The notes beneath the pieces are model-generated. The model saw only the letters and a program-made list of their open reading frames with translations. It was not told the origin of the DNA and did not search any database. The translations under genes and the position numbers were made by a program. Shown here piece by piece: positions 661 through 61,900 of a stretch of 64,000 bases of DNA (position 1 is the first letter of the stretch; every line of letters starts with the position of its first letter). The DNA comes from Nannobrachium achirus. Its lineage: Eukaryota > Chordata > Actinopteri > Myctophiformes > Myctophidae. The DNA lies in contig OY997657.1 of the NCBI GenBank assembly GCA_963921795.1, positions 1,816,813 through 1,880,812 on the forward strand, read 5' to 3'.

Positions 661-3600
661 GTACTGCATTCTGTTAGATAGATAGATAGATAGATAGTTA
701 GATAGATAGATAGATAGATAGATAGATAGATAGATAGATAGATGAATATACACAGTATAAAATGCATTACATTAATGAAAATAGAATACAGTGAAAACAA
801 TCCTAAATAAAACACACAAAAAATGTTAAAAAACATAGCTATATAACTACAATATAAATGTACATTGTAGATTAGCTGGGTAACATGTCATTAGGTCGAA
901 CACCCTTTAGATCGACCACCAAACTCTAACCCAAACCCTAAACCTAACCTCAGTAACCGTGACGCAGGTGATTATCTAACCTATTTATTTACTTTTCAAG
1001 TTATCACTACTGCAATAACCAACACAACCAAAGCTTACATGAAAAAACACTTCATCAGAAAGTCACAACTTAGGGAAAAAGTAAATAGTTACCATTGTTG
1101 CTTGTTGGTCAACTTGGTCCTCCCGAAATGTACAGTTCTAGTTCTGTAGCAACTTTGGGACAGGTTGTGAGGTCGGTATCCATTTAATTCCAATAAATGT
1201 ACATAGCGTCAAATGTCATTGTCCAGATCCAGAAACAAGAAACAGGCAAAACCAAACCTTTGGAATTCCAAAAGAGCAATTACTTTTATTAATATGAGAC
1301 GTCCACAGTCAGTAATTAAGTGCTGTAGTCCATATTCCAGCTGTCCAATGAAAAAATCATGCTGTCCTTCCTCCAAACATGCTTCCACACCACAGCCAAA
1401 ACAAAGTCGCCACATTATGATGTCATCACTCACTCTGAGAGCAGGTCCGGTTCTACGAGGGTGCTGAGGCCTGCTTTGCACCCTCATTTTGGCCAGGGAG
1501 CACCCCCACCTCTCAGTAATTCCCGAAATTTACATTATAATACAGTAGATCAGCATTGGCTGGCCACAACCGGTTTGGCACACACTCCCATTGGTATGCA
1601 AATTTAGCCTTTTGTTTTCACCTGGCCGATTTGAGTTGGGTATCCTTCACTTAAAGCATAGCACCCTCAGCCATTGTGGGCTGCCGCCGGCCCTGTCTGA
1701 GAGTCAACTGTAAGCTACTAGAAGTTTCAGGCCGCTGCGCGGCCCTCACCGCCATGTTGCGGCAGTGTGGTGTGTGTAATGGCCAAATATGTTTTTTTGA
1801 GAAAAAAAAATTTTTGAGAAAAAAAACATTTTGAGAAAAAAAGAATTTTTGAGAAAAAAAAATTTGAGAAAAAAAATTTTTTGAGAAAAAAAAGTTTTTG
1901 AGAAAAAAATTTTTGAGAAAAAAAAAATTGAAAAAAAATTTTTTTTGAGAAAAAAAAATGTTTGAGAAAAAAAAGTTTGAGAAAAAAAAAATTTAAAATA
2001 AAAAAATTGGTGATGCGATGACGTGGTGTATACGGATGTTACTGCGATTGAGGTGAAAGAGAAAAGTGGAAAGTTGTGAGCTAACTATTAGCTATTTTTG
2101 TGTGTGTGTGTGTGTGTGTGTGTGTGTGTGTGTGTGTGTGTGTGTGTGTGTGTGTGTGTGTGTGTGTGTGTGTTCTGGCTACGCCCCCCTCTGTTGAAAT
2201 TGGATCCGCCGGTCCCATAGCTGGGAATAAGAGCCAATCACTGGTCACCATGGCAACGGGGGGCCAATGATGGAGTTATGGGAGGTATTCCCTATGTTCT
2301 CCCTACCTACATCTGACCTACGTCTGATCTAGCTATGAGTTGAAGTGGATGTGAAGTGGGCGTGAATGGGCTTGGAAGTGGGATGCGGCTCTAATAATAA
2401 TAGATACAGGCTGCGACCGCGTATTTCCCGGTGAACCTAAGCACAATGGTGGGGGCTTGGGAGTGTGGGGAACACGCACCACTCAGGGCACTGGACCGAA
2501 CCATTTGGGGATTTTAGACGGGGGGGGTTTTAAACATTATCGCTCGCGTTTAGCGCGTGATTTTCAGAATTCAGACCCCTAAAAGTTTGGCTTGGGGGTC
2601 CCTGACTGGGGGGGACGGGGGGGTCTTCTGGAAGTGAATGGAGGGGACGAAATTGGACCTGGAAGGTGACAAAAAACCCTTGTGCCCCCCGCCATTTTCG
2701 CGCCTGGTAGAATGGACATTAATGATGTTTCTATAACATGCCAACCTGTTGTAGAATGGACATTAATGATGTTTCTATAACATGCCAACCTGTTGTGCCT
2801 GCAGGATGGACATGATGAAGGATGCCCTGGTGCAGCTGGAGGTTCAGGTTCCCTCTCTGCAGACCGATGCCACCGTGAGCGCCACCCTGAGGACGGACCC
2901 GGCATTGACCCTGGGCCTGGAGGCTGCCCTCAATGCCCCGCAAACATCCTCCCTGCACAAAGTCACTGTCAAATACGGTAACCAAACATCCTCCCTGCAC
3001 AAAGTCACTGTCAAATACGGTAACCAAACATCCTCCCTGCACAAAGTCACTGTCAAATACGGTAACCAAACATCCTCCCTGCACAAAGTCTCCATCAAAT
3101 ACGGTAACCAAACATCCTCCCTGCACAAAGTCACCGTCAAATACGGTAACCAAACATCCTCCCTGCACAAAGTCACTGTCAAATACGGTAACCAAACATC
3201 CTCCCTGCACAAAGTCTCCGTCAAATACGGTAACCAAACATCCTCCCTGCACAAAGTGTCCATCAAATACGGTAACCAAACATCCTCCCTGCACAAAGTC
3301 TCCATCAAATACGGTAACCAAACATCCTCCCTGCACAAAGTCTCCGTCAAATACGGTAACCAAACATCCTCCCTGCACAAAGTCTCCATCAAATACGGTA
3401 ACCAAACATCCTCCCTGCACAAAGTCTCCGTCAAATACGGTAACCAAACATCCTCCCTGCACAAAGTCACCGTCAAATACGGTAACCAAACATCCTCCCT
3501 GCACAAAGTCACTGTCAAATACGGTAACCAAACATCCTCCCTGCACAAAGTCACTGTCAAATACGGTAACCAAACATCCTCCCTGCACAAAGTCTCCGTC

Positions 3601-58900: not shown

Positions 58901-61900
58901 GATAATGAATGTTCTGGTCCACACTGTGGAGGTACAGTAGGCCTACTGAGAGGATAATGAATGTTCTGGTCCACACTGTGGAGGTACAGTAGGCCTACTG
59001 AGATGATAATGAATGTTCTGGTCCAGACTGTGGAGGTACAGTAGGCCTACTGAGAGGATAATGAATGTTCTGGTCCAGACTGTGGAGGTACAGTAGGCCT
59101 ACTGAGAGGATAATGAATGTTCTGGTCCAGACTGTGGAGGTACAGTAGGCCTACTGAGAGGATAATTAATGTTCTGGTCCAGACTGTGGAGGTACGGTAG
59201 GCCTACTGAGAGGATAATGAATGTTCTGGTCCAGACTGTGGAGGTAGGCCTACCGAGATGACTTGAACATTAACCCATTTAGGCCTAGAATTATTGAATG
59301 CTTTAACCAGTGAAAAATAGCAGATATACAAGCTCTGTGAGCTTGTAGATCTGCTATTTTTGAAAAAGTCGTGAAAATGTGTGCAAATATTTGAATATAT
59401 GTATTTTAATTTTAATTTCTAATTCTGCTTCTGGGGGGTCCCTGGATCTAAATATTTTGAGATGGGGTTCCGTGGCCAAATAATAAAGCAATAAGCCACA
59501 AGAGGCGAGTGGTTACCGGGGGAGTACACACCGGCTGAGAGGCGTTGGGAAACACGAGGCGCAGCCGAGTGTTTCCGACCCTCTCAGCCGGTGTATACTC
59601 CCCCGGTAACCACAAGCCTCGCGTGGCTTATTGCTTTTCTAAAACGGTCACAATAATTGCAACATGAAAATCATAGCATTGCATTATTTAAAGAAAAAAG
59701 TACACTTCTCCGCCACCAGGAAGAGACATTTCCTTGCGTTTACCAGTCACATCCAGGAATGGAACTTACGGAAGGCAGTGTGTGTTTACAAAGTCACGTC
59801 ATTCTTTTTGCCAAAAAAATAGGGAAACAACACTTGTGTTAGATCAGTCTCATGTTAAGAACCATATTCGATCCATACACATGTTTATTTTCATCCAGAT
59901 TTAGCTGCTATGTGGGTGAACAAAACATCAAAAACGCTAGCATAGCAACCTAAGCTAAACAGCCGAGTGGTGCCTGGAGAATAGAGGGCGCTTGTTGCCT
60001 TTACAAGCCCCGCCCGGAGCCATTCAGTCACTGTCCTATGCATGGGGGCGGTGCTTAGAAGCACCCGCACGGCAGGATTTGAGAGGAAATCAAACGCTCG
60101 CTTCTCTAGTTCAGCCTCACGGCACAGTGGAAAGAAATAACGCACCTGGCTTTGATATAAACTGATTCAAGGTGTGGGTTACAGTCTCAGGTATACCATG
60201 GCAAGCAGCCAATCAAAATCAAGGAATGGAACTAGCCGTTTTAGAAATATCATTTTGGGGGTCCTTCACATGAAAAAGGTTTGAGGAACCACTAACATAG
60301 TAGTCTCTCAAGAACAGACTAAGCTCCAGTTGAGTGAAAAGGACCTTTTCTTTGATGATGGCTGGCCAGATTGCTGACATAGAAACATAGGTTTTTCAAA
60401 AAACCTTAGAAGGATTCAAAAGACACTTATAGAATCGGGTCAAAAATAGCAGATCTACAAGCGGAGGAGGCCTACTGAGGGGATAATGAATGTTCTGGTC
60501 CAGACTGTGGAGGGAGGAATGACGAGTAGGGTTGGTACGATGTGAACATTTCATGTCACGGTTAGTGTGACCAAAGAAATCGCGATTTACGATATTATCG
60601 CTATAATCAAAATATGCCCAACATTCATTATCCTGGGGGCGGAACATTTGACAAAAAATGGCAGATCTACAAGCTCCACAATGCGACGCGTTGTGAGCTT
60701 GTAGATCGCCTATTTTTTGTCAAAGAGATTTGGTAGAGAATGGAAAAAACACTGTATCAAGTACGTATATTATAAGTACCTTTTACCAATAGAGGGTTTA
60801 AGTAGTGCAGATTTAAGCAGTAGTGCAGATCTGTGTATCCATGTATTTATTCTTCTACACAGGAGCGAACTGTGGGACTGCTAAGGCGACCACACTGCTG
60901 TTAATCCATCAGGGGTTGACGCTAACGCTTGCATGCTTGCCCGGGGCAGGTCAATAATATGGTCGGGCAGGTGAAGTTTGCTACCAGGTTGCCCGACAGG
61001 GCAGGTGCCCATTTGGAGTAACATAATATTAAATCTGTGTCTTTAGCCTACTTGAACGGGGCTATAGTGTTCCGTCTATCTCGCTCTCTCTCTCTCCCCC
61101 TGTCCCTCCCTCCCTCCCTCCACACACACTCTGACTCTCACTCACACACACACACACACACACACACACACACACACACACACACACACACACACACACA
61201 CACACACACACACACAACGAACTGCAGTTTGTAGTGGCTGCGTGATCTCAGTGGAAAACAGCTAATCTACAAGGCTTACAAACTTACATCATGCTAACGA
61301 ATGGCCAGATTAACGCACACGCTTTATTATGTGCTGAAGCACAGGGCACCAGGCTATTCCCGCAAAAGTGCTGAAATCTATAGCAAAGGCTACTGAAGAA
61401 GCGCTAAAAAATGTCTGTGAATCATCTATTTTCTGTGCGAAGCGTCTATACTTCCCTTGCTATCAACAGTGCTTTTCCGATGTTTCCTCCCTGTTGGTAG
61501 CCAGCCACACATATCTACACTACTGCGCTACAATGCATTTAATCAAGTGGCCAAGACCTGAGGGCAAGTAGAACATGACATGACCTGTACTTGCCCGACG
61601 GGCAAGTGCCTCTGAGACCTTAGTGTCAACCCCTGTCGATAATCGATTCATATTGATTTTTTCCGGCACCCTTACTATGTATATGTTGTCTGTCTTTTAG
61701 CTAATGCTATGTACATGTTCTCTATCTCTTAGCTAATGCTATGTACATGGGAGGTCAGGAGATGAAGAAAGTCCTGGCCAGAGACGACGTCACCATAAAA
61801 CAAAACCTCGACAAGGTAAGAATAAGATAAGACTATTTGTTCATGATATCACAGATAAAGTCATGTTTACATTTCATCCTTAACACTTATGTTGCAATGA

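Follow-up and report, generated by a model that had tools for sequence, protein, structure and literature searches.

Tandem arrays spanning splice sites of the apoB and LDAH genes near a contig end in the fish Nannobrachium achirus

The stretch of DNA analysed here (the window) is 64 kb of the Nannobrachium achirus genome, positions 1,816,813–1,880,812 of contig C20 (OY997657.1) in an assembly of 1.66 Gb and 564 contigs. The contig measures 60.6 Mb, and the window, which starts 1.8 Mb into it, carries two adjacent genes, many of whose exon-intron boundaries are caught up in tandem arrays. The 3' part of the gene for apolipoprotein B (apoB) occupies 450–33599 on the forward strand, with 17 coding exons in the window, including a giant exon at 13848–20920 that matches teleost apoB proteins as well as human apoB; the C-terminal exons also match the human protein. 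The gene for lipid droplet-associated hydrolase (LDAH; 52682–63645, same strand) has six coding exons, at about 52682–52907, 56655–56789, 57600–57766, 58168–58411, 61733–61815 and 63456–63645, and its best match is from Scomber japonicus (74% identical). Exons were placed independently of the arrays, using tblastn with fish apoB and LDAH proteins, plus splicing. The first LDAH donor was set at 52909 in the tests based on the array edges reported by Tandem Repeats Finder (TRF) and on 20-mers, and at 52907 in later ones.

Nine splice sites of these genes lie within arrays: six donors, of the exons ending at 2977, 5158, 24234, 26224, 56789 and 58411, and three acceptors, of the exons starting at 9920, 56655 and 61733 (all of these exon ends are exact). 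Tandem repeats that span exon-intron boundaries are called mirages in the parts of the amphioxus literature consulted, and anatomically the window arrays are mirages. In the order given, the donors occur in 23, 17, 21, 17, 5 and 17 copies and the acceptors in 12, 16 and 2, where a copy is a match to the 14-base core of the splice site with no more than 3 mismatches, a limit that more diverged copies would escape. All copies detected in the nine arrays retain their GT or AG. The initial annotation had placed nine boundaries in arrays of 2–23 copies, and this is confirmed by TRF, by the core count and by the independent exon models; the observation holds and is stronger than that annotation had it. 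The number of exon bases per unit had been given as 7–37, of which the upper value of 37 stands and the lower becomes 10 (read from TRF edges, except at donor 56789, where they were judged by eye). Surplus splice sites number 85 in apoB, as far as it lies in the window, and 36 in LDAH, and the introns bearing arrays are 1.3–3.7 kb long. Array edges are sharp, with identity to the unit dropping to about chance past the edge in the ten arrays examined.

All nine arrays are on the forward strand. The first, a donor mirage at the apoB exon 2805–2977, extends over 2941–3907 and consists of 23 copies of a 42-bp unit (37 exon and 5 intron nt) with GT in 23/23. The donor mirage of exon 4983–5158 (5147–6274) has a unit of about 62 bp with 12 exon nt and 17 site copies, and an acceptor mirage leads into exon 9920–10203 (9012–9946; 68/69-bp unit, 12 site copies, 27 exon nt). 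The donor of exon 24123–24234 is repeated 21 times within 24212–25410, in a 42–45-bp unit with 23 exon nt; TRF ends this array at 25064, and the last copy lies past a roughly 300-bp insertion with inverted ends. The donor mirage of exon 26035–26224 (26214–27252; 17 site copies, 11 exon nt) begins with a 71-bp unit, continues at a 38–50-bp spacing and includes a longer piece of exon near 27019. Judged by eye, the insertion in the donor-24234 array occupies 25064–25364 and has TTA flanks around its inverted ends (GGCCATGGCTACACGGAG...); the array is split by it and therefore probably predates it.

In LDAH, exon 56655–56789 carries a mirage at each end. That of the acceptor (55653–56664) has a 60-bp unit with 10 exon nt, and its 16 site copies retain AG in 16/16 cases and AG|GT in 12/16. 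That of the donor (56755–57520) is compound, the exon tail and its GT being present in five copies that are spaced 101, 61, 125 and 427 bp apart; its TRF edge starts 3 nt beyond the donor, and the copies hold about 22–35 exon bases by eye. Exon 58168–58411 ends in a donor mirage (58401–59246) with a 52-bp unit, 17 site copies and 11 exon nt, and exon 61733–61815 is preceded by an acceptor mirage (61675–61749; 32-bp unit × 2.3, 2 site copies, 17 exon nt).

With the exon-proximal splice site taken at every array, 16 of the 17 apoB exons (the last exon of the window was left out of the join) splice into one stop-free frame of 3257 aa. In the tblastn alignment a fish homologue (P0131) passes across the 23-copy array with no extra residues, its residues 1154 and 1155 meeting there. 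The gene reads through with junctions shared with its homologues, and no new intron is needed. The simplest reading of the sequence is that the outermost, exon-proximal site would be the one used, the remaining copies being intronic ballast.

The placement of the arrays differs from chance on several measures. In the window, 8 of the 29 TRF arrays with a period of at least 20 cross one of the 43 splice sites, against an expected 0.9–1.3 when exon overlap is limited to 40–60 nt (P 2 × 10⁻⁵ or less); when arrays are given two-unit lengths and unlimited exon overlap, 1.3 are expected and the excess persists (P 2 × 10⁻⁵). The pattern continues in the 20 kb upstream, which lay outside the first reading and contains more apoB exons. 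Arrays of 41 bp × 23 at a donor and of 72 bp × 8 and 55 bp × 2 at acceptors are found there, and exon tails with their donors are duplicated at further exons. Over the resulting 84 kb, with each array kept in its own intron, 11 of the 31 arrays in introns run across a splice site where 1.3–1.6 are expected, a count matched in 0 of 200,000 simulations.

A second measure scored a boundary as duplicated if the 20-mer across the splice site has another occurrence within 1.5 kb that matches at 17 or more positions. In the window and upstream sequence, 16 of the 56 scored boundaries recur (10/27 donors, 6/29 acceptors), compared with 4.2% of distinct, copy-collapsed intronic words (P 8 × 10⁻¹⁰). The recurrence of acceptor 30726 is a chance exon similarity, and dropping it leaves 15/56 (P 7 × 10⁻⁹). 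The upstream 20 kb alone gives 6/13 (P 7 × 10⁻⁶), with exon ends placed by eye and with two upstream donors of unfixed ends and the first upstream acceptor left out. Words within exons recur in 0.2% of cases when more than 100 nt from an edge and in 13.5% when within 25 nt, a contrast that purging of exon-internal duplications would produce. The raw gradient with distance from the splice site was discarded as largely an artefact of choosing the nearest copy, and a rotation control gives what remains: intron words recur at 0.256 versus 0.109 in the control at 25–50 nt (reached in 0/200 rotations) and at 0.124 versus 0.063 at 50–100 nt (2/200), so that those 25–100 nt from a splice site recur at about twice the control, and those beyond 400 nt fall below it. 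GC content was tested as a cause of the boundary excess and fails to account for it.

For comparison, boundaries from the interior of contigs were sampled as exon-centred pieces found with myosin and P-type ATPase protein searches, blind to repeats. The myosin exons came from 30 loci (L003–L005 were left out); 23 of their 54 boundaries went unscored because of weak splice scores, leaving 12 donors and 19 acceptors, of which 1/31 is duplicated, by a 69-bp × 2.4 donor array at locus L014. The P-type ATPase sample, 22 exons in 20 hand-picked stretches from 49 matches, gave 0/44, and a myosin gene 3.4 Mb from the end of contig C21 gave 0/8; for both, the site ranked first was taken regardless of score. 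The interior total is 1/83, or 1/67 under one splice-score threshold. At the density of the window, the pattern is regional and not the genome-wide property that had been envisaged.

The only myosin match in the list less than 3 Mb from a contig end lies 0.46 Mb from the start of contig C8 (26 kb, C8:455001–481000), and the end hypothesis was noted before its sequence was analysed. Its exons were placed with a continuous 1103-aa myosin frame that is also present in this genome, and 5 of 12 boundaries are duplicated, one acceptor core being present in 14 copies, mostly 125 bp apart. Of the 14 arrays in its introns, 4 cross a splice site where 0.32 are expected (P 1.7 × 10⁻⁴). The end boundaries outside the first reading amount to 11/25 duplicated, against 1/83 in the interior (P 1.3 × 10⁻⁷) or 1/67 (P 8 × 10⁻⁷). 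The initial annotation had held that the arrays, unrelated in sequence, have position in common and that random placement is a poor explanation, and the crossing counts (8/29, 11/31 and 4/14 on C8) bear this out. Two side observations concern the same gene. The tail of one C8 exon has six further copies, at about 130-bp spacing and then dispersed over some 9 kb (joined coordinates 14830–23516; L085, L102). An intron-less 1103-aa myosin-like frame, perhaps a retrocopy, lies on the reverse strand at C2:33912322–33917322 (L004) and is 100% identical over 25 aa to a C8 exon.

Minisatellite coverage follows the same division, being 20.4% in the apoB–LDAH stretch and 51.5% in the first 8-kb stretch of C8, and 1.2–1.5% in the interior pieces. 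Ten 1.2-kb samples taken at 1.0 Mb have a mean coverage of 17%, and five mid-chromosome samples a mean of 0.9%. The term chromosome end rests here on contig coordinates: among the matches listed, long telomere repeats occur less than 19 kb from one end of C9 and less than 3 kb from one end of C16, and some lie in contig interiors. A genome-wide search for paired consensus donors showed no excess (248 versus 384 in the reversed control), a weak test because about the first 100 of the 248 matches look mostly like repeated element families. Vertebrate minisatellites are enriched at chromosome ends, and the much higher array density near contig ends here is in keeping with this; to our knowledge, a bias toward exon boundaries is absent from the usual description of such minisatellites.

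A number of results weigh against a boundary bias tied to chromosome ends. If arrays are placed at full length with unlimited exon overlap, 5.2 crossings are expected in the window and the excess is gone (P 0.11). In a count without collapsing, 28% of intronic words recur, and the 16/56 of boundary words is no excess; this measure is dominated by long arrays, each copy being counted, and collapsed words were preferred for that reason. The gradient on the intron side shrinks under the rotation control, and at 0–25 nt (0.285 versus 0.189) 9/200 rotations reach the observed value. The interior mirage at L014 lies about 14 Mb from a contig end, and of the ten samples at 1.0 Mb six are array-free and two are covered for half or more of their length. 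The exon-level analysis covers two end loci (three genes), and no telomere repeats on C8 are among the matches listed, which do not extend to C20. The ranking of boundaries in the interior and C8 samples used an approximate splice matrix, and the ATPase exons had flanks of 500 bp.

The units themselves give some indication of how the arrays began. Across 14 mirages the exonic share of the unit ranges from 0.15 to 0.88 (mean 0.47) and fits a uniform spread (Kolmogorov-Smirnov P 0.66); the ends of the duplications are therefore not locked to the junction, and short segments overlap the boundary. AG|GT is found at 5/9 window boundaries, the other four being ACG|GT, CTG|GT, CAG|TG and TAG|CT, which together with the uniform exonic share speaks against the suggestion of a process favouring AG|GT junctions. 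In eight arrays the exon-derived part of the unit was compared with the intron-derived part, and it is more variable in four and less variable in four (array 26224 was aligned with gaps, in 49 columns for 11 exon bases, and its value is unreliable), a result that gives no hint of constraint on exon-derived sequence, and the idea that selection acts on the copies finds no backing. Nine of the 14 unit lengths are not divisible by three.

The explanation we favour, and consider probable, is that the mirages go back to founding tandem duplications that spanned boundaries, produced by a chromosome-end process biased toward exon-adjacent DNA, with the outermost site still working. Short segments would first be duplicated by that process, through break repair or recombination, and something about exon edges, for example transcription, may help the duplication along. 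The arrays would then expand and homogenise via slippage or unequal exchange, and selection would purge duplications inside exons and tolerate those that span boundaries, the latter, we propose, since the first donor or the last acceptor would still be the one spliced. The rotation and crossing results lead us to infer that, besides the chromosome-end process, mutation is biased toward DNA next to exons. Confidence in this explanation was slightly lowered by the six empty end samples and by the uniform-threshold tally. A further proposition is put forward more tentatively, as possible and somewhat on the doubtful side: that minisatellites arise by preference at exon edges close to chromosome ends, that the process is ongoing, and that it leaves tens to more than 100 surplus splice sites per gene. 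If so, the preference for edges would suggest that duplication is coupled to transcription or recombination there, and not to AG|GT.

The founding-duplication explanation has to be set against one without any positional bias in mutation, in which duplications arise evenly, those inside exons are purged, boundary-spanning ones survive, and the finding reduces to a dense minisatellite region. Arrays do occupy 20% of the locus, the exonic share of the units is evenly spread, and the excess vanishes when all copies are counted or when full lengths and unlimited exon overlap are allowed. However, a purging model of this kind yields 0.9–1.6 boundary arrays rather than 8 or 11, and 0.32 rather than 4 on C8, and the rotation control still leaves the excess at 25–100 nt, so we regard even placement as unlikely. 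Below it we rank the possibility that the arrays were kept or favoured since extra splice sites help, by aiding exon definition, slowing splicing or allowing recursive splicing. It could draw on the intact GT or AG of all detected copies and on AG|GT at five of the nine boundaries, but near-identical copies make intact sites expected anyway, the comparison of exon- and intron-derived variability shows no consistent difference, and the introns, at 1.3–3.7 kb, are not giant; the regional pattern would also be left unaccounted for. Just as improbable, in our estimate, is a process linked to splicing or RNA and aimed at junctions, such as repair templated by a nascent transcript or lariat; the boundary excess is what such a process would produce, but the unit ends are unanchored at the junction, and arrays also lie over a stop codon, inside an exon and in the interiors of introns.

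Two further alternatives are hardly credible. The repeats might be coding, the 42-bp array being an in-frame extension of the apoB exon, and a frame from 2770 to 3945 is indeed open through it; other frames of this array are open as well, on both strands, though, the fish homologue joins directly across it, and most unit lengths would break the frame. An assembly artefact is brought to mind by a 200-N gap beside a 45-bp × 69 array, and is scarcely compatible with copies that differ at scattered sites, with the sharp edges and with the recurrence of the pattern on another chromosome with other units.

Contrary to the initial annotation, which knew of no named phenomenon that matched, there are precedents. 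The sections available of an amphioxus globin paper describe mirages in BflGb6 and BflGb9, cite Adh3 and state that splicing seems unaffected, and those of a PGBD5 paper add mirages in PGBD5 and TnC; copy-number polymorphism and somatic instability have been reported for amphioxus mirages. As in amphioxus, the window repeats span boundaries, affect both donors (six) and acceptors (three), carry GT or AG in their copies and leave the normal exon in one open frame. They differ in belonging to a teleost, in reaching 23 copies, in affecting 15/56 boundaries in two adjacent genes and in their concentration, as sampled, near contig ends. The human CBS gene has a 31-bp variable number tandem repeat, c.1444_1467+7(16_21), of 24 exon and 7 intron bases in 16–21 copies, and the 844ins68 allele duplicates the junction of intron 7 and exon 8 (PMC2630376, in part). 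Going by its notation the former is likewise a minisatellite over a donor; unlike the fish loci it concerns one gene, and the portion of the CBS text consulted claims no regional pattern. Intron gain in potato has been connected with a tandem duplication that extends over a boundary (PMC4974935, in part). There too the duplicated segment crosses an intron-exon boundary and provides splice signals, but according to that excerpt the new intron is in use, whereas here the reading frame requires none. A teleost example is Sparus aurata, with a block of roughly 150 bp repeated at the 5' end of MSTN-2 intron 1 and minisatellites in GH introns (PMC3045353, in part); a splice-site span is not stated in that part of the text. 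The listings of the open-licence literature searched showed no teleost mirages, and neither such a density in teleosts nor a concentration at chromosome ends; the excerpts of PMC2206037 and PMC12783039 hold nothing pertinent. What looks new is where the mirages occur, that is, their density and their regional concentration near contig ends.

How splicing settles on one of twenty near-identical sites and how introns arise are questions usually approached through rare single cases, and mirages put both to a natural test. A single genome here provides genes with about a quarter (15/56) to two fifths (5/12) of their scored boundaries duplicated, with the copies in series. The surplus splice sites would, if the tentative proposition above is true, be raw material for new introns; a tandem-duplication model of intron gain was reportedly put forward by Rogers in 1989. 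The regional concentration is the part worth following. Should the chromosome-end rule prove true, minisatellite formation would be tied to the recombination landscape and to the structure of genes, and caution would be due with gene models and with variants called from short reads in such regions.

Other arrays and elements lie in and around the two genes. A 36-bp × 3 array at 33575–33682, on the forward strand, covers the end of the apoB reading frame, repeating its last 25 nt, with the stop codon, plus sequence beyond, and represents the same type of event at a coding end other than a splice site. Within the first LDAH coding exon is an in-frame 33-bp × 3.6 array (52701–52818, forward strand), and the alignments of two homologues to this exon begin only at about 52772. 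Neither of these two arrays figures in the initial annotation. Two arrays, at 2707–2796 and 29774–30112, stop 8 and 13 nt before an acceptor, and the 44-bp × 2 unit among these resembles the adjacent exon start (GAATGGACAT versus GGATGGACAT). Between apoB and LDAH, on the reverse strand at 38977–41679, are frames resembling a tyrosine recombinase and a reverse transcriptase, which have the look of what we take to be a DIRS/Ngaro-type retroelement; they adjoin the 200-N gap and the 45-bp × 69 array. A short hairpin-like element (gcagatctacaagc...gcttgtagatctgctatt) is present at least at about 4253–4310, 4783–4845, 8832–8890 and 63129–63200.

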